Virus record (IMG/VR): IMGVR_UViG_3300047312_000203
Coordinates: 1-23,988 of that record
DNA from: a virus
Length of the DNA stretch: 23,988 nt
Strand: one strand, 5' to 3'
How positions within the stretch are numbered: the stretch's first letter is position 1; each line of letters starts with the position of its first letter. The notes under the pieces were generated by a model. That model was not told where the DNA came from. It saw only the letters and a program-made list of their open reading frames with translations, and made no database searches. Both the position numbers and the translations under genes were made by a program. Below, piece by piece: positions 1,914-22,598 of the stretch.

Positions 1914-4064
1914 TTAGGCGGCTTCTGACTCGGTGACAGTGATCACGCCCTCACCGATCTCGGTGCGAACTTCGATAGCGTCCATGCTCGACAAGGTGCG
2001 CACCTTGAAGACCATCACGAAGATCCCGAGCGCTTCGAGCGCGTCAGAGTTGGCGTCGAGGCTTCCCGTGTAGCTCGCGATCCGCTGGCGCTCGGGGTCG
2101 TCGGTGCTCAGGAGCCCGGACAAAAAGCCGTCGGAGCTCACGTAGCAGGCGTCGCGCCGAGAATCGGTCATGAGCTTTTTCACGAACGGCACGAGCCCGC
2201 GCGCCAAGCTGTCTTGGATGAAGTCGGCCATCTTGCGGCGCGCCTGCGTCTTGCGGCCGTTGATCGAGCTGGTCGTGACGCCGCTCTGGAAGACCATGCC
2301 CGCCGTGCGGTCGAGCCGCGGCGCGCAGATCCCCGAGGCCTTCAGGTCGGCGTAGTCGGTCGCCGTAAGCACGGTGCCGCCGGCCAAGGTTTCGATGGCG
2401 AAAAAGTTCGTCAGCAGCTGGGTTGCCTGACCCGCGTTCTCTTCGGGCGGCAAGAGCGCCGAGACCTTCGCCAGGCCCGCATGGGCGCGCAGCGTCACGA
2501 TCCCGGAGTCGTTGAAGCCGAGGCCGCCAGAGACGCCGCGTGCCTGGATCTCGGGGATCACCACCTGCCAGCCGGGCCAGGTGTACCAGACACGATCAGA
2601 GCGCAGCAGCGCGGCGTCGACCTTGGCCTGCGCCTTGGTCAGCCCGAGCGCGCCAGAGCGCAAGAACTTGCGCCCCGCCGAGCCCGTATTGCTCGCGTCC
2701 TCTGCGTTGTCGGAGGCGTAGGTGTCGATCGCGATCGAGCGGCGTGCGCTGTACAGGTAGTTGATGTCGATCGCTTCGTTCGTGGTGTCCTTGGTCTTGT
2801 CGAGCGCCGCCGTGTAGCGCGCGTCGAGCTGACCTTCGGTGAGTGCAGCCGTGAGCGCCGCCGGGTTCGTGGCGCTCATCGTCGCAAAGCTCGGCTGATC
2901 GATCAGCACGTTGACGGCGTTCGCGCTCTGACCGACCGCGGTCCCGTCGTCGTACGCAGGGCGCACCTTGATCGAAAAGGGGCCGATGTTCGGCGCCGCG
3001 TTCGTGCCGGCCGCCACCGTGGTGGTGACCATCGTCACGAACTCGACCGCGCCAGACGTGCGGATGCGCGTGCCGGCCTTGATCGTGCCGCCGGCGTTCT
3101 CGCCCGCCTTGACGGTGGTCGCCGTGATCGTGATCCCGAGCGCCGTGGCCATCGCGCTCGCTGCGATCAGGATGGTGCCGGCGCCCGCGGTGCTGTCGTA
3201 GATGGACAGAAGCCCAGACGCGTCCACCAGCGCCTTGCCGTTGATCGAGGCGAGGCCCGCGGTGCCGTTGATGATCGTGGCCACCTCGGCCGCGGTCACC
3301 ACCTGAAGATTGGCGACGTTGCCAGTGCCCGCCGTCGTGCCACCCGTCAGCTGCAAAACCGCCAGGACACCCGCGGTGCCATCGGCAAGCGTCAGGCTTC
3401 CGCCCGTGCCCTTCTGCAGACCCTTGATGGTGATCACGTTGGCAGCCTGCGTGGCGACGACGGCGCCGACCGCCGCATTGATGCGCGACACGACTGCGGC
3501 CGCCGTCTGATCGGAAGCTGCGAAGGTGACGACGATCATGGGCAGCGCGTCGATCGTGACGTTGAGCTTCTCGCCCCCGAGGAAGCCGGTACTGACGACC
3601 GCGCCGCCGCCGCCCGTGCTGGTGGTCAGCGTGATTTGCTGGCCGACGATCAGGTTGTAGGGGCCCTTGGTTCCCTTGATGACCGCGAGCGGCGAGAAAG
3701 CGACCTCGCCGACGCTCGAGTCCACGCGTACGACCAGGAAGCGCGGCGCGCGAATGAACTTCGTGTAGAGGAAGCCGTTCCCGTTCCACACCTCGCCGTT
3801 GCGCTGGCGCGCGCACGGGTTGTTGCCGGTGATCCCGGCGTAGGTGTAACCGAGGGTTCCGAACTGGCGCGTGATGTCGCCGCCCTCGACCTCGGTGAGC
3901 ACGCCGATCGGTCCGTCATCGAGCTCGCCCACCATGCAGACGACCCCGGTACCGATGCCCGTAATACTGGCGCTCGGATCGAGATCTTCGACATACACGC
4001 CCTCAAGGGCGGTCATCTCTTCGATGGTGAAAACACGACGCGCGCGGAAAATGTAACCAGCCAT
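1914..4064 (-). CDS. Contractile tail sheath protein
   Basis: Probable tail sheath subunit, 716 residues, which contracts during DNA injection. I place the start at ATG 4064 (MAGYIFRARRVFTIEE), with GGGGG 6-10 bases upstream; the open frame continues further upstream but that part looks like unconstrained GC-rich sequence. The N-terminus has the usual PGVYVEDLDP-like opening (here EGVYVEDLDP, residues 21-30). The C-terminal third, with DTYASDN, VWYTWPGWQVV and the ARRKMADFIQDSLARGL helix, resembles the conserved sheath core. Residues of about 130-330 form a Gly/Ala/Thr-rich beta insertion holding two diverged copies of a 60-residue module (near 175-238 and 255-315). The next gene is the tube. 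The family is known for variable inserted domains on the virion surface. Confidence 0.9.
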   Translation of the reverse strand: MAGYIFRARRVFTIEEMTALEGVYVEDLDPSASITGIGTGVVCMVGELDDGPIGVLTEVEGGDITRQFGTLGYTYAGITGNNPCARQRNGEVWNGNGFLYTKFIRAPRFLVVRVDSSVGEVAFSPLAVIKGTKGPYNLIVGQQITLTTSTGGGGAVVSTGFLGGEKLNVTIDALPMIVVTFAASDQTAAAVVSRINAAVGAVVATQAANVITIKGLQKGTGGSLTLADGTAGVLAVLQLTGGTTAGTGNVANLQVVTAAEVATIINGTAGLASINGKALVDASGLLSIYDSTAGAGTILIAASAMATALGITITATTVKAGENAGGTIKAGTRIRTSGAVEFVTMVTTTVAAGTNAAPNIGPFSIKVRPAYDDGTAVGQSANAVNVLIDQPSFATMSATNPAALTAALTEGQLDARYTAALDKTKDTTNEAIDINYLYSARRSIAIDTYASDNAEDASNTGSAGRKFLRSGALGLTKAQAKVDAALLRSDRVWYTWPGWQVVIPEIQARGVSGGLGFNDSGIVTLRAHAGLAKVSALLPPEENAGQATQLLTNFFAIETLAGGTVLTATDYADLKASGICAPRLDRTAGMVFQSGVTTSSINGRKTQARRKMADFIQDSLARGLVPFVKKLMTDSRRDACYVSSDGFLSGLLSTDDPERQRIASYTGSLDANSDALEALGIFVMVFKVRTLSSMDAIEVRTEIGEGVITVTESEAA

Positions 4065-4138: not shown

Positions 4139-4819
4139 CTAGCCCTGCGAGCTCGTGAGGGTGTGGACTGCGCGCGGCCAGAAGTGCCGCCCCGCCCTCA
4201 TCTCGAGCATGGGCGCGTCCCACGTCACGAGCGCGCGCAGCTCCCATTCATTCGTATAGGCCTTGGCCGGGATGTTGACGCGCTGCGCTGGCTGCTTGAG
4301 CGTGAAGCGCCCTGTCGCGCAGGCATAGATCTCGGGCAGGCGCAGCAGCACCCCGCGCACCTCACGCGGATTGAAGATCCACGAGAGCGCCGTCGCCATG
4401 GCGTCGCGCAGGGGCTTCGAGTCGGCCCAGAAGCTGACCTGAAACACACCCTGGGCGTCCCCGAGATTCCAAATTACCGTGCCGCGCGCTTCGTCCCACG
4501 TATCTTCGAGCGCGTGCGGCAGAGCCTCGCTGAGGGCCGCGTCCGAACGCGGGAAGATGGACGCCGACGGGTAGAGCAGCTTCTGTTGGGCGGTGGGGTA
4601 GTCGTCGAGCACGTCCAGCAGGGTGACTTCCCGATTTCGCGGCCGATCCTGTGCCGGGTCAGCCGGCTCGCCGCCCCAGACCGAGAACGTCTGACAGCGC
4701 AGATAGGCTTCGAGCGCCATCGCGCACGCTTTCTCGGCGTCGATCTGCACGCTGAGGCTATCGATGTGCGGCGCGGCCGCGTCCCCTTCCTTGCCGATCA
4801 CGACGTCACCAGTAGCCAT
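4139..4819 (-). CDS. Putative tail terminator / tail completion protein
   Basis: This is a 226-residue protein between the HK97-gp10-like gene and the sheath. In contractile-tailed phages this slot usually encodes the tail terminator, which caps the tail and provides the head-joining surface. The sequence has an early helix (IDAEKACAMALEAYLRC), a mixed middle with SFWADSKPLRDAMATALSWIF, which fits the helix-strand pattern of tail terminators, and a C-terminal strand pair (TNEWELRALVTWDAPMLEMR). The start at ATG 4819 follows the previous stop by 5 bases, suggesting coupled translation. The assignment is by gene order and general pattern only. Confidence 0.5.
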   Translation of the reverse strand: MATGDVVIGKEGDAAAPHIDSLSVQIDAEKACAMALEAYLRCQTFSVWGGEPADPAQDRPRNREVTLLDVLDDYPTAQQKLLYPSASIFPRSDAALSEALPHALEDTWDEARGTVIWNLGDAQGVFQVSFWADSKPLRDAMATALSWIFNPREVRGVLLRLPEIYACATGRFTLKQPAQRVNIPAKAYTNEWELRALVTWDAPMLEMRAGRHFWPRAVHTLTSSQG

Positions 4820-4824
4820 GCGAG

Positions 4825-5325
4825 CTAGCGTGACCCGCGCGCGCGCTCGGCCGCCATCTTTTTGAGCGACTTACGGATCTCACTATCGAGCACGCGGTTT
4901 TTCTTCCAGCGGCGCAGCGCGCGCGAAAAGTAGCGCTTGGGCGCGATCCCATGCTGCTGGATGCTGCGCCGCACCGCCCACGCCATCGCTACGGGGTCGG
5001 TGGCGCCCTTGCGCGTGGCCCAGGCGATCAAGGGCTCGATCGGGGGCGTAAACGGCCGCGTGCCGCCTTCCATCATGGCCGCGTAGGGCGCGCCCATCGT
5101 CACGAAGGCGCCCGTCTTCAGATAGATCACGCCGACGCTGTTGCGCATGATTCCGCGGTCAACGACGGGGTAAGGCTCGTTTTCCGAGATCTCTTCGACC
5201 ACGTAACCCTTGAGGCGCTCGGCGGCGCGCCGGCTCGCAATGACCGCGGCGTGCTGAAGGTCGGCCGGCAGGCGCTGCACGAGCCCCACGAACTGCGAGA
5301 TCGTGACCTTGCGCCGCTGCCCCAT
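4825..5325 (-). CDS. HK97 gp10-like neck / tail completion protein
   Basis: A 166-residue protein resembling the HK97-gp10-like family, small proteins of the head-tail neck. Typical features are a basic N-terminal helix (LQHAAVIASRRAAERLKGYV), then ENEPYPVVDRGIMRNSVGV, then GAPYAAMMEGGTRPFTPP, the Gly-x-x-Tyr-Ala-x-x-x-Glu-x-Gly-Thr pattern that marks this family. The C-terminal third (KRYFSRALRRWKK to the end) is strongly basic. I choose ATG 5325, 2 bases after the previous stop (5330-5328), over starts further upstream, which would overlap the preceding gene. No strong ribosome site is visible, so translation is probably coupled. Confidence 0.75.
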   Translation of the reverse strand: MGQRRKVTISQFVGLVQRLPADLQHAAVIASRRAAERLKGYVVEEISENEPYPVVDRGIMRNSVGVIYLKTGAFVTMGAPYAAMMEGGTRPFTPPIEPLIAWATRKGATDPVAMAWAVRRSIQQHGIAPKRYFSRALRRWKKNRVLDSEIRKSLKKMAAERARGSR

Positions 5326-5327
5326 AG

Positions 5328-5735
5328 CTAGACGGTATGCGTGCCTTCGACGCCTCGTGCCTCGCGCGCGCGCGTACGGTCGTGCAGCCGGCGCAGCGCG
5401 GCCTCGGTGCACTCAAGCGCCTCGGCATTCTCCTGGCACGCGTAGGGGCTGCTCTGGAAGCCGCGCAGGCGGTCCGCCACGATGGCGAGCAGCACTTCAT
5501 TCGTGATGCCGTTGACGCCCACTTCCTTGATTGGCCCGTTCTGGAAGCAGATCAGCGTGCAGACCAGCGACGGGGTGCCTTCGGGGGCATCGGGGGGCGC
5601 GATCGAACCCGGTGGGCCTTGATACAGGATCGTGTAGACGTGGCTCGCGTTCCCGTTCTTGGGGTTGCGCTCGTCAGCCTCGATCGTGATCTCATGGTTC
5701 GCTGCGTTGATTTGGTGCTCGGTGATCTCTGGCAT
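5328..5735 (-). CDS. Acb2/Tad1-like domain protein (possible CBASS/Thoeris inhibitor)
   Basis: A 135-residue protein. Residues of about 63-135 match the pattern I remember for phage proteins annotated as having an Acb2/Tad1 hairpin domain: FQNGPIKEVGVNG (64-76), an ADRLRGFQ helix (87-94), then a second helix ending LRRLHDRTRAREARGVEGTH (115-133 region). Acb2 and Tad1 are phage sponges that bind the nucleotide signals of CBASS and Thoeris defence. Whether this longer version binds a nucleotide is not shown. Residues 1-62 add an extra domain with NPKNGNASHVYTILY, which often accompanies this C-terminal pattern in phages. The start is ATG 5735 with GAAGGA upstream. It lies inside the neck gene cluster, 2 bases from the gp10-like gene, so a structural role is the main alternative. 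Confidence 0.6.
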   Translation of the reverse strand: MPEITEHQINAANHEITIEADERNPKNGNASHVYTILYQGPPGSIAPPDAPEGTPSLVCTLICFQNGPIKEVGVNGITNEVLLAIVADRLRGFQSSPYACQENAEALECTEAALRRLHDRTRAREARGVEGTHTV

Positions 5736-5761
5736 GGCGTGTCCTTCGCTTCGCTGGGGAT

Positions 5762-6319
5762 TCAGCGTTGGCCAGGGTACATCACCGCACCCGATCGATC
5801 CCGCCCCTGCGCGAGCTCGGTCAGCGTCACCTTCCAGTCGAACTGTTCGGGGCGCCGCACGGGCATGTCCTCGACCACGAACGGGCGCCGATCAGTCTTG
5901 CCGTCGCGCGCGTCGACAAACACTTCGATGAAGCCCTCTTCATTGGGAGGCAGCGGACGCCGGTGGAAGAGGTCGAGGATCTCATCCTCCGTCAGCTGAG
6001 GGTTGAGCTCGGTCAGCACCACCACGCCGCGCTCGACGTAGCCGCCGTCGCGCAGCTGGCGCTGCACCTTGGGCTCGACCTTCGGCCGTGGCAGAAACTC
6101 GCGCTCCCAGACGCGCGTCACGTCGCCGCGCCCCGCCTGGTTGCCGTTCCAGCGCAGGCGCACCGAGAGCACGCGATAGGGACGCATTCCCAACGTCGTG
6201 TTGAGCTCGCGCGCGCTGTTCACCGTGCACGCACGCTGCGCGGCCCGCCCGCACGGGCCCGGGTCGACTACGACCGGCACAGCGGGAAGCAAGAGCCGCG
6301 GATTTCCGCTGTTATCCAC
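5762..6319 (-). CDS. Unrecognised neck-region protein
   Basis: A 185-residue protein of unknown function, lying between a connector candidate and the Acb2/Tad1-like gene. I choose GTG 6319 (read as Met-DNSGNPRLLLPAVP), because AGGGGG lies 7 bases upstream; the open frame beyond it overlaps the previous gene. Visible features are a Pro/Val-rich N-terminus, a Cys pair (CGRAAQRAC), an arginine-rich middle (RVWEREFLPRPKVEPKVQRQ) and an acidic helix (QLTEDEILDLFH). The position suggests a head closure or neck protein, but no signature supports this. Confidence 0.6.
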   Translation of the reverse strand: MDNSGNPRLLLPAVPVVVDPGPCGRAAQRACTVNSARELNTTLGMRPYRVLSVRLRWNGNQAGRGDVTRVWEREFLPRPKVEPKVQRQLRDGGYVERGVVVLTELNPQLTEDEILDLFHRRPLPPNEEGFIEVFVDARDGKTDRRPFVVEDMPVRRPEQFDWKVTLTELAQGRDRSGAVMYPGQR

Positions 6320-6329
6320 AGCATGCCCC

Positions 6330-6782
6330 CTAGGTGTTGGTAACGCGCATGCCGCCGTTGAAGGTCTGGCTATTCGGGTTCGGGAACACGCCCAGATCAT
6401 CGGCGAGGATGCTGATCAAACGCCGACGCTCGGCCAGCAGCTTCGTGCGCCCGAGGCGCGCGTCGAAGGTAATGCCGCCCGTGCTGGTGACGCCGCCCCG
6501 CTTGTTGTCGGAGCGGATCAGGCACTCGACCTCATCCAAGTCGCACAGGTCTCGGCGCACCTGGTTACGCCCATCGGGGCTCAGACGCTTGAAGGCATCC
6601 TCGGTCACGTAGAGCGGCTGAATGGCCGCCGGGTAGCCGAAGGCAATCGCGGGCGCGAGCGCAAACCAGCGCGGGTAGCCTAGGAAGTGCAAGATCTTGG
6701 TCTTTTCCTCTTCGGAAAAGCCTCCGACGCTCAGCGCTTTCGCGAGTGCGGTCTCTTCTTGCTCGAGCGATGCATCCGCCAC
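6330..6782 (-). CDS. Putative head-tail connector (adaptor) protein
   Basis: A 150-residue protein. The early helix followed by KTKILHFLGYP resembles the Arg/His-x-x-Leu-Gly-Tyr-Pro element found near the start of many head-tail adaptor proteins, which bind under the portal. Later helices (RNQVRRDLCDLDEVECLI and AERRRLISILADDLGVF) fit the all-helical adaptor fold. The start appears to be GTG 6782, 13 bases after the previous stop; the ribosome site is weak. Neighbours (capsid upstream, gp10-like and sheath genes downstream) support a neck role. The call is tentative because the motif is short. Confidence 0.55.
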   Translation of the reverse strand: MADASLEQEETALAKALSVGGFSEEEKTKILHFLGYPRWFALAPAIAFGYPAAIQPLYVTEDAFKRLSPDGRNQVRRDLCDLDEVECLIRSDNKRGGVTSTGGITFDARLGRTKLLAERRRLISILADDLGVFPNPNSQTFNGGMRVTNT

Positions 6783-7680: not shown

Positions 7681-9060
7681 TTAGCCCGCGTGCTCGATAA
7701 CCAGCGCGCGCTTGAACATCGCGCCGTTGCCGGAAAGCAAGTCCGTGGGCACCGCGAATCCGCCCGACCACGACCACGCGTGATCGACGATCTGCTGCAG
7801 CACATCGAGCGGCGCGCGGATGGTGTACCGAATGCGATCGGTCAGCACCGTCACGCCGTTGTTCGTCACCTGGAAGTTGCCCACCTTGCCCATGATCCCT
7901 GCCTCGGTGATGTAGTCGGACTCGGGGATGTAGTGCTCGTAGATCGAGCCACCACCCGTGATGATCGTGCGGCCGATCGGCGTGCCGCCGTCGTTGATGA
8001 CTTCCGCGCCGATGTACGGGGCCGCGCGCGCGCTGCCCGAGGGCTCAGCGAACAGGGTCCCGACGTTGAACTGATTCGGGCACTCCGTGTTGCTGTAGAA
8101 GTAGCAAGCGAAGTTGGCGCCGATGGCCATCGACCGGTAGGGCATCGCGTCCGGGATCGATTGGTAGATGCGCTGCCATGCGTTGTCCTGCATGAGCTGC
8201 GCCTCACCCGCTTGCGGGATATGCACGTGATACATGCCGTCCGCGTGCGGGGGCACGTTCTGCGAGCGCAGCAGCGCCACCGCCTGGGTGATGTCGTTGA
8301 GCGTGAGCAGCGAAGTGCCCGAGAGCGCGTCCACCGTCGCCACGTTGCCGGCGCGCAGGATGCGCGCGCGCTGAAGTGCGCGCACGCGCGAGCGCGCCGC
8401 CAAGTTGGCGCCCAGGTTCGCAGACAGGGTCAGCGTGCCGGGGCCGTTCGGGAAGTCGGTGTTGTCGGGAGTCGCCGCCACCACGTTGGCCGCGATATTG
8501 GTGTTTCCGAGCTCGACCGCGATGGGGGCCGCGGGCGAGACGGGCACCAGCTGGCCGAGCAGCACGCGCTGCCGGAAGCCGTTGATGCTCGCGACCCGGA
8601 TCGCTGCCGTGCCGCTGCTGGCCAGCACCATCGACATGGTGTCGCCAGACAGATAGGCGGTGAAGAGCTCGTTCCGCGTGACGCGGTTCATGGTGTCGCC
8701 CGCGAGCTCGCCCAGCTTCTGGGTGTCCTGCGAGAACTTGCTGGCGATCTGCACGCGGCTCTGCGGCATGTAGGTCTGCATGCCGTCGCCGCGCTGCACG
8801 GCCTCGACGCGCCATTGCTCCGTGCCGTAGGTGCGTACCGTCGGGTCCTGGCCGGGCGTGAGCGGCGTCATGTTGGGTTCCATGCGGCCCGTACGCGTGA
8901 AGATCTGCGCTTCGCCGATGTTGGCCGCCCAGCGGAAGGACTCGACGTCGGCGCGGAAGAGCAGCCGCGGGTAGAGCGCTTCGTAAAACGTACGCACCAG
9001 GGCGTTCTGCTGGATGATATTCGCGAGCTCGGGTCGAAACCCTACGAGTGAAACAGTCAT
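7681..9060 (-). CDS. Major capsid protein
   Basis: Probable major capsid protein, 459 residues, the main shell subunit. Support: it follows a scaffold-like gene, precedes neck genes, has the longest leader and best ribosome site in the window (GGAGG at 9074-9070, 9 bases before ATG 9060), and is flanked by two strong terminators. The N-terminus (MTVSLVGFRPELANIIQQNALVRTFYE) fits an N-terminal arm; the central MNRVTRNELFTAYLSG and the C-terminal GRTIITGGGSIYEHYIPE and TDRIRYTIRAPLDVLQQ segments resemble coat proteins of the HK97-fold N4-gp56/P22-like type. The fold assignment is from memory of the pattern. No protease gene is visible nearby, and the protein may not be cleaved. Confidence 0.82.
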   Translation of the reverse strand: MTVSLVGFRPELANIIQQNALVRTFYEALYPRLLFRADVESFRWAANIGEAQIFTRTGRMEPNMTPLTPGQDPTVRTYGTEQWRVEAVQRGDGMQTYMPQSRVQIASKFSQDTQKLGELAGDTMNRVTRNELFTAYLSGDTMSMVLASSGTAAIRVASINGFRQRVLLGQLVPVSPAAPIAVELGNTNIAANVVAATPDNTDFPNGPGTLTLSANLGANLAARSRVRALQRARILRAGNVATVDALSGTSLLTLNDITQAVALLRSQNVPPHADGMYHVHIPQAGEAQLMQDNAWQRIYQSIPDAMPYRSMAIGANFACYFYSNTECPNQFNVGTLFAEPSGSARAAPYIGAEVINDGGTPIGRTIITGGGSIYEHYIPESDYITEAGIMGKVGNFQVTNNGVTVLTDRIRYTIRAPLDVLQQIVDHAWSWSGGFAVPTDLLSGNGAMFKRALVIEHAG

Positions 9061-11806: not shown

Positions 11807-12361
11807 CTACGTCGAGAGCGCGCTTCGTAGCCGTGTACGAACAAGTACGCCCACCAGCATGGGCGCGGGTGGGCGGTACAGGGCGGCGCATTCACCGATT
11901 ACGAAGCTCGTGTCGGTCTGCGCTCGGATCTCGACGGTATTGGCCCCGTAGCCTTCCCAGAGCTCGCCGCGTAGGTGGTCGCGGTCCGGGTCGCCATCGG
12001 CACAGTTGGCGATCGCGTGGATCCACTCGTGCACGCTGCTGTCGACCAGCTGAATATCCGGGCGGCCATCGAGCAAGTAGATCGTACGTTCCTCGACCTC
12101 GGTGCAGCCGGTGGTGAGCTCGTCGGGGCCTCGATCGAGCGCACACGGAATGTCGGCTTCGGCCGATAGCTGGATCGTGTACTCGCGGTCGAGCGTGTCG
12201 CAGCCGTCGGGCACCCGCCCCACCTGGTCGGTCCATGCGTTGAGCGTTGCCACGTAGCTGCGATAGCAGGCGCCGAACACGTGTTGTTCCGTGTCGGGCT
12301 TGGGCGTCGAATCGCAGGCGTAGAGCAGGAGCAAGGCGATCAGCGGGATGAGGTATCTCAT
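11807..12361 (-). CDS. Lipoprotein with HExxH zinc-metalloprotease-like motif
   Basis: A 184-residue probable lipoprotein. The start MRYLIPLIALLLLYAC gives a signal peptide with a lipobox ending at Cys16, so the protein should be anchored on the cell envelope. HEWIH at residues 111-115 is the classical zinc-binding and catalytic motif of zincin proteases; Asp128-His129 and Glu133, in DPDRDHLRGELW, are candidates for the third zinc ligand. Six further Cys could form disulphides. No protease family is recognised with certainty, and activity is inferred. The gene sits between small accessory genes and the head block, not with tail lysins. The ribosome site is weak, and the gap to the previous stop is 31 bases. 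It could equally be a receptor-blocking or envelope-modifying protein. Confidence 0.65.
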   Translation of the reverse strand: MRYLIPLIALLLLYACDSTPKPDTEQHVFGACYRSYVATLNAWTDQVGRVPDGCDTLDREYTIQLSAEADIPCALDRGPDELTTGCTEVEERTIYLLDGRPDIQLVDSSVHEWIHAIANCADGDPDRDHLRGELWEGYGANTVEIRAQTDTSFVIGECAALYRPPAPMLVGVLVRTRLRSALST

Positions 12362-12392: not shown

Positions 12393-12671
12393 TCAATGGA
12401 AGATGTCGCGAAAGAAGCGCGATACCAGCCCGTGAAGAACTGACAGGAACTCTGACCAGCTGAGCCTGCACCCCGCGCGCCGCCCGTGGACGTGGCTGAA
12501 GTCGATCGTTCCTTCGCCATCGCCCTTCGGGAAAGCCCATATGATCACCACGCGCTCACCCTCGCGCAGCGCCTTTTCGAAGTCGGCGCGCAAGCTGGCT
12601 TCGTCGCCGTCGCCGTCCTCATCCTTTTGCCAGGGGCGATCTTCCGGCTTTAGCTCGCGGAGATTCGTCAC
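12393..12671 (-). CDS. Unrecognised small protein downstream of methyltransferase
   Basis: A 92-residue protein of unknown function, starting at GTG 12671, which overlaps the methyltransferase stop as GTGA. AAGGGATG lies just upstream. The N-terminal third is acidic (KDEDGDGDEASL), followed by VVIIWAFPKGDGEGTIDFSHVHG and a hydrophobic C-terminus (WSEFLSVLHGLVSRFFRDIFH) that forms an amphipathic helix. The compact size and overlap suggest it is made with the methyltransferase. The open frame continues far upstream but only the part from this GTG looks real. Confidence 0.6.
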   Translation of the reverse strand: MTNLRELKPEDRPWQKDEDGDGDEASLRADFEKALREGERVVIIWAFPKGDGEGTIDFSHVHGRRAGCRLSWSEFLSVLHGLVSRFFRDIFH

Positions 12672-13294
12672 AGCAGCATCCCTTGCGCGAGCTGGCCGCG
12701 CGCGAGCTCGCAATACGCCGGGTTGATGTCCCAGCCTTCCGCGTCTCGGTGGTGGTTCTTGGCGGCTACGAGCGTGGTGCCCGAGCCGCAGAATGGATCC
12801 AGCACAAGCTCGCCCGGCAGCGAAAACCAGCGCACGAGCCAGCGCACGTGGCCGATCGAGCGCGGGCATGGGTGCCCGATCCGGCCTCGACCCATGCGGC
12901 CACCGTCGATCGTCTTGCCGGGCACAACGCGTGTTCCCTCGGGATAGCGCTCGCGCCCGTAGACATAGGCGAGATCGCTGCCCACAAGCACCGTGCCGCG
13001 CTTCGACGGTACGTAGTACTCGAGCCAGCACGTGCGCCAGAAAGGCCAGTAGCTGGGCACTGCGCTGAGAAAGCGCGGATCAGTGCCGCACCCGACGTGC
13101 AGCACGACGTGCGAGACCTTTCCCACCAGGTGACCAAGCGTGTCGTGTAGGAGCTTGCCGGCGTCCACGCCTGGAAAGAACTTGGCGCCGCGGTTCGGCC
13201 ACACGGGATCGGTGATCACCACCGTCGGCTGCGTGGGCTGGAAGGCGCGCGCGAGCTCGATCGCGTCGCCGCACACGACGGTTTGCCCGCTCAT
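12668..13294 (-). CDS. DNA methyltransferase (beta class, N6-adenine or N4-cytosine)
   Basis: A 208-residue methyltransferase that would transfer a methyl group from S-adenosylmethionine to the amino group of a base in phage or host DNA. The catalytic motif comes first (TDPVWPN, residues 28-34, at the place of Asp-Pro-Pro-Tyr/Trp), and the cofactor motif comes late (LDPFCGSGTT, residues 165-174), followed by GWDIN (187-191). This order defines the beta class. The second Pro of the catalytic motif is replaced by Val, which is unusual. At 208 residues it is short, with a small target recognition region. It has no cognate nuclease in the window, so it looks like a solitary phage enzyme, perhaps to avoid restriction. 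The start overlaps the previous stop (ATGA). Confidence 0.85.
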   Translation of the reverse strand: MSGQTVVCGDAIELARAFQPTQPTVVITDPVWPNRGAKFFPGVDAGKLLHDTLGHLVGKVSHVVLHVGCGTDPRFLSAVPSYWPFWRTCWLEYYVPSKRGTVLVGSDLAYVYGRERYPEGTRVVPGKTIDGGRMGRGRIGHPCPRSIGHVRWLVRWFSLPGELVLDPFCGSGTTLVAAKNHHRDAEGWDINPAYCELARGQLAQGMLL

Positions 13295-16622: not shown

Positions 16623-18245
16623 TTACTCGTCGCCGTCTTTGTCGTCGCCGCCGGCGCCCTCGATGCCCACCTGGGTTTTGAGCGCCTCGGCCGTGCGCTC
16701 TGCATCCTTGTCGGCGTCTGCTTCGATCTCTTGCAACTCGAGATCGGTGTCGACCACGCCGAAGAGGTGCCCCACGTAATCGACGCCGCTCTTTTGGCTG
16801 AGCAGCGGCTTTCCGCCCGTGGCCGCTTGCGCGATCGACACCGTGTCTTTCACGTCCTGGCTTGTGGGCTGGAAGTACGGGGGCCACTTGAGCGTGACCG
16901 ACTCGACCTCGCCCGGGTCGAGATCCGGGGTCAGCGTCTCTTTGTGCTCCATGACGACGGCGCCCATGTCGTTCATGATCTGCAGCGCCGGCTTCGCACG
17001 CACCTTGCGCGCGACCTTGAGCACATCCTCAAGGATGCGCGTCAACGTGCTGCCGTATTGCGGGCGCAGCCGATTGCAGCGGGCGATCATGGGCGCGTAT
17101 TGAAGCCGCTTGGCGGCCGCGCTCTGCGCCATCCCGCTCTTGGCCTCTTCGTCACGCGGGCGCACCACCTGGCACTCTTCGAGGATCGACACGCGTAGCT
17201 CGCTCATGAGCTCGAGCGCGGCCTTCACGCTGCCGCCCGCGAGCTCTAGGAACTCGGCGCCGCCCGGCGAGTGGATCACCGCGCCCGACCCCTTCGTCAC
17301 CGGCTGCTCGTCGTCTTCGCTCTTGATCACCAGCGTGGGGTCGACGTTGAAGGTGGTCCCTTTGGTCGTCGCGCTCAGCAGGCGGTTGTATTCGTCGAAC
17401 TTGTCTTCTAGGCCCTCGTAGTCGCCGTCGCCGTCTTCCTCTTCGGAGTTGGGCAAGTTCTGCGTCCAGTAAAACGGGCAGAAGCCAAAGCCGTGATCGC
17501 CGACGAACGAGGGCGCGATCTTGTCCATCCAGTCGGGTTGCTCAGCGAGCTCGGCCGGCACGGCTTCCCACGTGATGTCGACCGACATATCCCAATAGCG
17601 GACATACCAGAAGTCTTTGACCTTCCGCTCACCGCCTTCGAACACGGGCTTCTTGAACAGGTAGGCCTTGAGCACGCGCGCGGGCAGCAGCTTCTGCCGG
17701 TTCGCCCACTCGAGCACCGTGCAGTGCTTGGCGTTGTGGACGTCCACCGCAAAGGCGTTCGCGATCACGCCCAGGCTCAGGCAGGCGGTGCCATGCTGGC
17801 CCCCGTTGTCGCGCGCCTCGCCCATCTTCTGCGGCAACAGCATGAGCTTTGACCACTCACGCAGCGCCTTCTGCGCCGCGTCGTCGCCATCGACGTTGAT
17901 CTCGGGGAAGGCGTCGCCGTCGACCGACATCTCGGTCAGGCTCGCCGTCACCAGGCGCGCGAAGCGCTTGCGCGTGCTCGGCCGCCGGCGGTCGAGCGAC
18001 ACGTAAAAGCCAGGCGCCATCGGCAACGGCTCAAGGCCGCCCATGCCGCGCGGCGAGCCGTTCCAGTCGTAGCGCTTGCCATCGTCCTGCGTGCCCCTGA
18101 AGTATTGCTCGAGCCGGTCCATGTAAAAGAACCGGTCGTTCTCGCAAAGCTTGCGCAGCGGCACGCGTGGCAGGAGCATCAGGGCCACTGACGCCATCGT
18201 GGAAGCCGGCGCGGGTGGCACGGTCGGAACGAGCGCTACGGACAC
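16623..18245 (-). CDS. Portal protein
   Basis: A 540-residue probable portal, the dodecameric ring at the head vertex through which DNA is packaged. I choose GTG 18245, with GGGGG 6 bases upstream; an in-frame ATG 16 codons later is possible. Residues 55-120 (LDRRRPSTRKRFARLVTASL) and the segment KFDEYNRLLSATTKGTTFN (residues of about 286-304) resemble portal proteins of the SPP1/Mu group, and an acidic stretch (SEEEDGDGDYEGLED) precedes the latter. The C-terminal part has LKWPPYFQPTSQDVKDTVSIAQ and an acidic tail (GGDDKDGDE). The Mu gpF-like gene next to it supports the call. A large terminase would be expected further upstream, outside the window. Confidence 0.82.
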   Translation of the reverse strand: MSVALVPTVPPAPASTMASVALMLLPRVPLRKLCENDRFFYMDRLEQYFRGTQDDGKRYDWNGSPRGMGGLEPLPMAPGFYVSLDRRRPSTRKRFARLVTASLTEMSVDGDAFPEINVDGDDAAQKALREWSKLMLLPQKMGEARDNGGQHGTACLSLGVIANAFAVDVHNAKHCTVLEWANRQKLLPARVLKAYLFKKPVFEGGERKVKDFWYVRYWDMSVDITWEAVPAELAEQPDWMDKIAPSFVGDHGFGFCPFYWTQNLPNSEEEDGDGDYEGLEDKFDEYNRLLSATTKGTTFNVDPTLVIKSEDDEQPVTKGSGAVIHSPGGAEFLELAGGSVKAALELMSELRVSILEECQVVRPRDEEAKSGMAQSAAAKRLQYAPMIARCNRLRPQYGSTLTRILEDVLKVARKVRAKPALQIMNDMGAVVMEHKETLTPDLDPGEVESVTLKWPPYFQPTSQDVKDTVSIAQAATGGKPLLSQKSGVDYVGHLFGVVDTDLELQEIEADADKDAERTAEALKTQVGIEGAGGDDKDGDE

Positions 18246-20329: not shown

Positions 20330-21088
20330 TCAGGGTGTGATGCCGGTGTCTGCCAGGATCCAGGTTTGCTGCGCCGCGCGCTCTGCGGGACCGAGGTAGT
20401 CACCCAGGACAAGCGCCCTGTACCTGAACGCGGCCAGGTTTGCACCGTTTGACTGGCCGCCTAGGGAAAGGGTGTTGGCCGGCGCTGCGCCGCTGGGCGC
20501 TGTCGTGCTGGTGATGCTCACCGCAAGCGCGCTCTTGATGTACACGGCAGCCCCGGGCGAGATCCCGAGCCTGTACGACACCAGGTAGTAGGTGGCGACG
20601 TTCTGCACCTGAGCGACGCCGATACTGACGAACGCGCCCGCGGCATTGGAGACGTACAGACCCACGTTTCCCGCGCCGGCAACGTCGAATGCCAGGCCCA
20701 CGCCAATCGTGGCCCCCACCGTGCGCGTGCAGACGGGCCTGCCGCCGGCCGCGGTGTTCGTCGGCGTGCACACCAGCAGGATCGAGCCGCCGTTTCCATC
20801 GTGCTCGAAGGTGTAGTAAGCGGCCGGCTTGTTGCTGACGTAGTATTCCGCGCCGGTGAAGGTTGCGCAGAGCTTGCCGCCGAAGTCCGCGTGCGCCGCC
20901 GGCACCACCACTTGGTTCGAGTTGGAGGCCTGCACGAGCTGGTGCGCCGCGTCGTTGTAGTCGATCCACGCGCTCACCTTCCCCGTGATGCCGTCCACCG
21001 CGTAGTAGTCCGCCACGAACACCGGACGGTTGAGCGCGACCGTGAGCACGTCGCCGAATGGGGTGATCGGGTTTCGGTCGAAGTTCAT
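20330..21088 (-). CDS. LamG/ConA-like lectin-domain protein, third copy
   Basis: A 252-residue protein, the last of three tandem paralogues of exactly equal length. Residues of about 22-80 (PVFVADYYAVDGITGKVSAW, IDYNDAAHQLVQ, then ADFGGKLCATFTGAEYY) follow the start of the jelly-roll LamG/concanavalin-A-like fold common in phage receptor-binding and decoration proteins: Lys-Val-Ser-Ala-Trp-x-Asp, a short strand, then a Phe-x-Gly strand. The end QQTWILADTGITP matches the usual last helix. ATG 21088 overlaps the previous stop as ATGA. Two segments are identical in DNA to the second copy. Carbohydrate or surface binding is inferred from the fold pattern. Confidence 0.65.
   Translation of the reverse strand: MNFDRNPITPFGDVLTVALNRPVFVADYYAVDGITGKVSAWIDYNDAAHQLVQASNSNQVVVPAAHADFGGKLCATFTGAEYYVSNKPAAYYTFEHDGNGGSILLVCTPTNTAAGGRPVCTRTVGATIGVGLAFDVAGAGNVGLYVSNAAGAFVSIGVAQVQNVATYYLVSYRLGISPGAAVYIKSALAVSITSTTAPSGAAPANTLSLGGQSNGANLAAFRYRALVLGDYLGPAERAAQQTWILADTGITP
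20862..21025. repeat. Near-identical tract shared with second lectin-like gene
   Basis: Two stretches, 20862-20906 (45 bases) and 20950-21025 (76 bases), are identical to 21614-21658 and 21702-21777 in the second copy. They flank a diverged 43-base segment. Confidence 0.93.
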
Positions 21089-21843
21089 GGCGCGATCCCT
21101 GTGTCCTGCTGGATGTAGCTATATACTGCCGCGTCCTCTTGAGCCCCGAGATCAGGTGTCACGATCAGGAGATGGCGCACACGCGCTTTCAGTGGCAGCG
21201 AATCGTTTGAACTGCGCGCGCCAAAGCTCAGCGAAGAAGAGGTGTTGATGTTGTTATTTAGAAGTGCGCCAGTCTCGGCCGCGATTCCGTTCTTTTTCAT
21301 ATAGCGCCGCGGGTCATATGCCGAGACTGCTACCACCACGCTGCCCGCGACATTGGTGGTGAACGCGGTTGAGACGCCAAGAAACGCTGACCCTCCCGAG
21401 CGAAAGAGAGCCCAGCGAACCACGTTCGTCGCCGATAGCTCATTTGTTGCGCCGCCGGAACCGGTGTTGTCGGTCTCCCAGATCAGCTGGGCCGCGCCCG
21501 CGGCGGTGACTGTCAGCGTTGAGTAGGCGCGACTCGGCCCGTTCACAAGATAGTTCCAAGACACCGCTGTGCGATTCGACTGATACCAGCGCGCAGCCGT
21601 GGCGCCGTCGAACGTTGCGCAGAGCTTGCCGCCGAAGTCCGCGTGCGCCGCCGGCACCGCCACCTGCCTGGCATTCAAGGTCTGCGCGAGCTGGTGCGTG
21701 ACGTCGTTGTAGTCGATCCACGCGCTCACCTTCCCCGTGATGCCGTCCACCGCGTAGTAGTCCGCCACGAACACCGGCTGCTGCTGCGCCATCGCGCAGA
21801 TATTGCCGAAGATCGTGGCAGGCACGCGTGCGGGGATCGTCAT
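21085..21843 (-). CDS. LamG/ConA-like lectin-domain protein, second copy
   Basis: A 252-residue paralogue of the genes on either side. I choose ATG 21843 (MTIPARVPATIFGNICAMAQ), which overlaps the previous stop as ATGA and gives exactly the same length as its relatives; the open frame continues upstream but without a better start. It carries the same N-terminal module (PVFVADYYAVDGITGKVSAW, IDYNDVTHQLAQ, ADFGGKLCATFDG) and the ending VYSYIQQDTGIAP. The C-terminal two thirds differ strongly from the third copy. The role is probably virion surface binding. Confidence 0.65.
   Translation of the reverse strand: MTIPARVPATIFGNICAMAQQQPVFVADYYAVDGITGKVSAWIDYNDVTHQLAQTLNARQVAVPAAHADFGGKLCATFDGATAARWYQSNRTAVSWNYLVNGPSRAYSTLTVTAAGAAQLIWETDNTGSGGATNELSATNVVRWALFRSGGSAFLGVSTAFTTNVAGSVVVAVSAYDPRRYMKKNGIAAETGALLNNNINTSSSLSFGARSSNDSLPLKARVRHLLIVTPDLGAQEDAAVYSYIQQDTGIAP
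21614..21777. repeat. Near-identical tract shared with third lectin-like gene
   Basis: Partner of 20862-21025: blocks 21614-21658 and 21702-21777 are identical, and the 43 bases between them have diverged. The identity covers the N-terminal lectin module of the encoded protein. Confidence 0.93.
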
Positions 21844-22598
21844 GGCGTGATCCCCGTGACTTGCTGGATCCATGTCGCGACGTTCCCGGCCCGGGTGTCG
21901 AGGGGCGGACTCAACATGAAGGAGTGCCAATCACCGATAAAGGCATTTGCGCCACCGGGAAGCTTTCCCAACACGAAGGTACTTGGTGGGTTTGCAATCG
22001 ATGGGCTCGAAAGCGTGCCTGAAAACTTCAGCGTGCTCTTATGAAAAAACTTCGTCGTAAGAGTGCCCGCGAGCACCGTGGCTCGAATCCATGTGGGAGT
22101 GCCTAGCGCTGCAATCGCTTGGTCCCCCACGCCGATGGCTGAGCCAGACGCGTTGTTGACGTTCATCGAAGCTGTTGCACCGGTTGTCGTGAGAAGCAGC
22201 GACTGATAGTTGGTAGTCCCAGTTTGCGTGCCTGCCAAAACCGAAGCGCCACCCGCGATCCCCGTGGCCCTGAAGCACAAAAATTCATCCATCCCGCTTC
22301 CAGAATGGAGATACACCCAATCACGAACCGGCCGGTTGCTCGTGTAGAACATCGTGGCCGCGAACGTCGCTACGATCGCGTTGTTGAAGAGCGCGCTCGC
22401 CACGGGGACGGGCACCTGATTGGCGCTGACCGTCTGCGACAGCACATGACCCGTGTCGCTCCAATCGATGAAGCTCGCGACTTTGCCGCTCACTCCGTCG
22501 ACAGAATAGTAGCTAGCCGTGAATAGCGGCCGACCTTCCGCGAGGCAGCGGATATAGGAGAACAGCGGATCGAGCCGCGCTACCGCTACGCGCGGCAT
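21840..22598 (-). CDS. LamG/ConA-like lectin-domain protein, first copy
   Basis: A 252-residue protein, the first and most diverged of the three paralogues. Matching points are PLFTASYYSVDGVSGKVASF, IDWSDTGHVLSQ, then TFAATMFYTSNRPVRDWVY and the ending VATWIQQVTGITP. ATG 22598 lies one base after the previous stop. The DNA of its last half has visibly lower GC than the window: 66 of 120 bases (55%) at 21901-22020, against 81 of 120 (67.5%) at 20461-20580. This suggests a segment acquired from another phage or host. Probable role: surface or receptor binding on the virion. Confidence 0.62.
   Translation of the reverse strand: MPRVAVARLDPLFSYIRCLAEGRPLFTASYYSVDGVSGKVASFIDWSDTGHVLSQTVSANQVPVPVASALFNNAIVATFAATMFYTSNRPVRDWVYLHSGSGMDEFLCFRATGIAGGASVLAGTQTGTTNYQSLLLTTTGATASMNVNNASGSAIGVGDQAIAALGTPTWIRATVLAGTLTTKFFHKSTLKFSGTLSSPSIANPPSTFVLGKLPGGANAFIGDWHSFMLSPPLDTRAGNVATWIQQVTGITP

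Follow-up and report, generated by a model that had tools for sequence, protein, structure and literature searches.

The window analysed here is the whole 23,988-nucleotide stretch of the viral record IMGVR_UViG_3300047312_000203, and all of its identifiable structural genes are coded on the minus strand. They form a block with a portal gene, a MuF-like protein, a scaffold-like protein, the major capsid protein, small genes in the position of the neck, a sheath and a presumed tube gene (Table 1). Between two of the small genes, g5762 and g4825, lies a homologue of tad1, tightly packed and on the same strand as the rest of the block, with only 2 bases separating its stop codon from the ATG of g4825. 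A fold search with g4825 gave no significant match, the similarity to a SaPI1 neck-structure chain being weak (E 1.1, probability 0.63), and its "neck" label is based mainly on position and synteny. The structural block also holds a lipoprotein-like ORF (window positions 11807-12361, minus strand) and a DNA methyltransferase-like ORF (12668-13294, minus strand). Three tandem paralogous ORFs with a common segment like FVADYYAVDGITGKVSAWIDYND are found at 20330-22598 on the minus strand, and a Pfam scan of one of these three gave no match.

Table 1. Features of the window discussed in the text, with the evidence for each assignment.
Feature	Position	Strand	Evidence or remark
Portal protein	16623-18245	minus	phrog_64, E 4e-22; SPP1_portal above the Pfam cut-off
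Major capsid protein	7681-9060	minus	phrog_1357, E 1e-14
g5762, conserved neck-cluster gene upstream of tad1	5762-6400	minus	function inferred from position; homologues in 71 viral loci; synteny with sheath relatives
Shine-Dalgarno-like AAGGA	5742-5746	minus	6 bases before the tad1 ATG; from sequence
tad1 homologue	5328-5735	minus	135 aa; ATG start; stop codon TAG at 5328-5330
N-terminal beta domain (about residues 1-64; A30 and H32 near-invariant)	5544-5735	minus	AlphaFold2 secondary structure; profile alignment to the CmTad1 and CbTad1 N-domains; conservation
C-terminal helical hairpin (about residues 64-132; F93, N103, R120, T121, R124, GVEGT tail)	5340-5546	minus	conservation and AlphaFold2
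g4825, conserved neck-cluster gene downstream of tad1, probably tail-completion-type	4825-5325	minus	synteny; weak fold similarity to SaPI1 neck-structure chain
g4139, neck/tail-terminator position gene	4139-4819	minus	synteny
Contractile tail sheath	1914-4058	minus	weak Gp18 domain III match; 25 related viral loci

A preliminary description of this DNA had pointed to the ORF as a probable sponge of the Acb2/Tad1 type, and the ORF was found exactly where it had been placed, with all three of the motifs quoted for its 135-residue product (FQNGPIKEVGVNG, ADRLRGFQ and RTRAREARGVEGTH) confirmed. The GC content of tad1 (0.654) and its GC3 (0.837) are like those of the neighbouring neck genes, and recent horizontal transfer, considered on the basis of composition, was therefore unsupported. 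Where a late-gene ribosome site had been described, a generic Shine-Dalgarno-like stretch is seen. A sigma-70-like promoter was sought between 4700 and 7700 and none was found, which says little, as the phage may use other sigma factors. Two further IMG/VR contigs (53.9 and 18.9 kb), referred to here as siblings, also contain this region; they are 99.9% identical to the window there, and tad1 is free of differences.

Sequence comparison places the protein in the Tad1 family, with similarity well above anything chance would give. Searched against PDB sequences with phmmer, the window protein alone matched CmTad1 (1.4e-17), phiKZ gp184 (2.4e-16) and CbTad1 (6e-9), and a family profile built from a 38-member alignment (the window protein and 37 relatives) matched the same three at 2.8e-41, 7.8e-22 and 1.5e-25, respectively. 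Of the 124 profile positions, the alignment covers 4-123 in CmTad1 and 18-123 in CbTad1, spanning both the N- and the C-terminal domain. Homologues of the window protein occur in at least 80 viral-contig loci and in 145 phage records. The protein also matched PHROG 2428, a group of unknown function, at 3.6e-31, as well as PHROG 22140 and 23843. In contrast, Pfam and NCBIfam scans with the window protein alone gave no match. The profile check proposed in the preliminary description thus came out divided: taken literally, the Pfam model for Acb2 and Tad1 spoke against the assignment, while the PDB comparison with the family profile spoke for it. Since that model, PF24729 (Acb2_Tad1_hairpin), matches 24 of the 38 aligned family members, yet at E<=1 passes over 13 of the 37 relatives in the alignment as well as the window protein itself, its silence is best read as a failure of sensitivity.

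The predicted structure agrees with this assignment. AlphaFold2, run as a monomer on the 38-row alignment, gave a model (pLDDT 89.6, pTM 0.79) with beta strands at residues 17-20, 33-39 and 57-64 and long helices at 79-94 and 101-127. When the model was compared with the PDB by Foldseek, 20 matches reached E<=0.001, every one of them a Tad1 chain (TM 0.65-0.80), and the next best match had an E-value of 0.68. Chain I of entry 8y6v, phiKZ gp184, was not among the 50 fold matches listed, perhaps because its Tad1 domain is disordered in that entry. The first 62 residues had previously been described as an extra domain; both the model and the profile alignment identify them as the standard beta domain of Tad1 and not as an addition. 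Conservation in the hairpin points the same way: F93, N103, R120 and R124 align with F82, N92, R109 and R113 of CbTad1, which we take to be ligand contacts, and across the 38-member alignment they are retained in 37, 37, 38 and 38 sequences, respectively. The possibility, raised earlier, that pocket residues had been lost can be set aside, as all four putative ligand residues are present. With profile, fold and residues in agreement, the original call of an Acb2/Tad1-family sponge holds and can be narrowed to Tad1. The window gene very probably encodes a Tad1 homologue, and as a type of protein it is ordinary.

Among characterized proteins, CmTad1 (PDB 8kbb, 8kbc and 8kbd) is alike in both domains and in predicted fold, and has the motifs FQ-GPIKE-G-NG and RT-RE--G-EGT in common with the window protein. 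The two are about 33% identical over the structural alignment, and the window protein differs in having a longer proline-rich loop at about residues 40-56. CbTad1, from a Clostridium botulinum prophage (PDB 7uav, 7uaw, 8smd and 8kbe-8kbh), has the same fold (TM 0.7-0.8) and presumably uses the same four residues for its ligand, but it is about 31% identical and lacks the VNG and VEGT consensus, having QHG and VLGT instead. Agrobacterium phages OLIVR5 and OLIVR6 and Rhizobium phages IC12, IG49 and LG08 code for unannotated Tad1-like proteins that are 45-47% identical over 97% of the length.

The unusual aspect of this gene is its location. The major capsid protein and g4825, used as single-sequence queries, recovered only the two siblings; the comparative set came from the sheath and from an alignment-based search with g5762. 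Relatives of the sheath, 35-51% identical and spread over about 20 other contigs, show with few exceptions the order capsid, g6330, g5762, g4825, g4139, sheath and tube, and in these g5762 and g4825 are as a rule directly adjacent or share a few bases. The g5762 search yielded 71 viral loci; among genome contigs, scanned for a prophage host, it matched a single fragment, which belongs to an Armatimonadetes MAG. With the two siblings set aside, both flanking genes are present in 68 loci, a number that includes near-duplicates (52 were distinct after a crude check). They lie within 60 bases of each other in 64 of the 68, the remaining four carry other inserts (1459, 734, 393 and 110 bases), and Tad1 is found between them in none. 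A profile search for Tad1 in 35 of these contigs was also negative, with a sibling contig as positive control (6e-49); many of the contigs compared are fragments, so the absence is established for the slot. Because none of the 68 loci with the same flanks carries Tad1, we consider tad1, on this comparison of sequences, to be very probably a lineage-specific accessory insertion and not a part of the neck.

Other genes have entered this region in related phages. The slot holds an unrelated ORF of 481 aa, without a Pfam match, at L089:5293-6738 (on the same contig as L126), and loci L170 and L182 have other small inserts between the two neck genes; given these three cases, the neck slot may be a recurrent site for cargo. 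At L106:4798-8001, a neck gene is separated from the sheath by two inserted ORFs, one collagen-like with GAQGAQ repeats and one glycosyltransferase-like.

The relatives of tad1 are themselves found in different surroundings. Apart from the siblings, none has homologues of the neck genes of the window nearby, and the neighbours that can be named code for terminase, portal protein, RNase H or functions in DNA metabolism. The copy in Rhizobium phage IC12 is flanked by SbcCD and DNA ligase genes and, unlike the window gene, is outside the structural genes. This variety of neighbourhoods marks tad1 as mobile cargo, inserted in many different settings. A further Tad1-like ORF, diverged in sequence (E 2e-4), was seen at L004:5479-6081, about 2 kb upstream of an intact copy, with a hairpin that lacks the RT--RE--GVEGT motif.

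Taken together, the locus is explained with high confidence as a complete gene for a Tad1-family sponge, carried as accessory cargo by an uncultured contractile-tailed phage and placed between two of its conserved neck genes. Late expression was one of the options offered in the preliminary description, and the position of tad1 in the operon argues for it: the gene is probably transcribed with the late genes, and its product would then be made together with the late proteins. Since a sponge of this kind works by stoichiometry, it makes sense for its gene to lie in a late operon that is strongly expressed. The protein is predicted to assemble, like Tad1, into a hexamer of three dimers and to bind gcADPR of Thoeris and/or the cyclic nucleotides of CBASS without degrading them; the CBASS ligands would probably include cyclic tri- and dinucleotides. 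Homologues of Tad1 vary in their ligand range, and the preferred ligand is not readable from sequence. The pockets of Tad1 combine conserved loops and the C-terminal tail with helices from the partner chain and bind gcADPR and cyclic dinucleotides, whereas cyclic trinucleotides bind at separate sites at the trimer interface (review, PMC12043709). Late structural proteins are known to trigger some of these systems, as in the sensing of capsid by Thoeris (PMC12043709). Sequestration of the signals would keep effectors of the ThsA or Cap type from aborting the infection at the time when capsid and tail proteins appear.

A different role would follow if the protein were packaged, for example via the neck region, so as to be delivered into the cell along with the DNA and to act ahead of all phage gene expression. 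Delivery of Tad1 by the virion is already known from gp184 of the jumbo phage phiKZ. This homologue, which was found with the window protein as query, carries a structural-protein annotation; its injection has been validated (PMC10449902), and phiKZ is described as injecting a Tad1 that blocks both CBASS and Thoeris (review, PMC13282480). The C-terminal Tad1 domain of gp184 matches residues 16-134 of the window protein with 34.5% identity, and the location of tad1 among virion genes would suit such a route. However, gp184 has 230 aa, with about 110 residues ahead of its Tad1 domain, while the window protein is a bare Tad1 of 135 aa in which no N-terminal extension or packaging segment is visible. 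The homologue from Burkholderia jumbo phage FLC9, gp131 (L113:3377-4393), has 338 aa and carries a peptidyl-prolyl isomerase domain of the cyclophilin type (residues 3-162; PF00160, E 2.5e-44) in front of a C-terminal Tad1 domain that is 47% identical to the window protein; the whole fusion of this type is covered by one phage record only. The tree groups the window protein with those of loci L005 and L015 (support 92/76), apart from gp184. Moreover, accessory genes of late operons are not necessarily parts of the virion. We therefore regard virion delivery of this protein as unlikely, and the same judgement applies to what it would entail, a stand-alone Tad1 carried by virions outside the jumbo phages without a dedicated packaging domain. 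If true, it would extend the delivery of a signal sponge by the virion beyond the jumbo phages.

Still less probable is that the protein serves as a structural neck or tail-completion component that re-uses the Tad1 fold and has lost nucleotide binding, an option that had been raised alongside the sponge. Its place between two conserved neck genes, with short intergenic gaps, would fit such a role, but the absence of Tad1 from this slot in all 68 other loci having both flanking genes makes it very improbable, as do the intact putative ligand residues and the fact that the nearest sequence relatives belong to unrelated phages, some of them beside terminase or RNase H genes. Finally, the hairpin family PF24729 is common to Tad1 and Acb2, but that the window protein is a minimal, hairpin-only sponge like Acb2 of PaMx33 and its relatives is hardly credible, given that Acb2 lacks the N-terminal beta domain present here and that profile and fold searches returned Tad1 chains, with no Acb2 chain among the significant matches.

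Reading the gene as a late-made Tad1 sponge, we describe here a new member of the family in an unusual but explicable place, the location within the structural gene block being its only unusual feature. This sponge goes undetected by the current Pfam model, and since PF24729 fails on 13 of the 37 aligned relatives as well, surveys of sponges based on Pfam under-count them. The locus also indicates that anti-defence cargo can sit inside an otherwise rigid neck operon. If tad1 is indeed expressed late, its position bears on when the signals of Thoeris and CBASS need to be neutralised, as any sensor that responds to late structural proteins would be triggered at the very time the sponge is being made.
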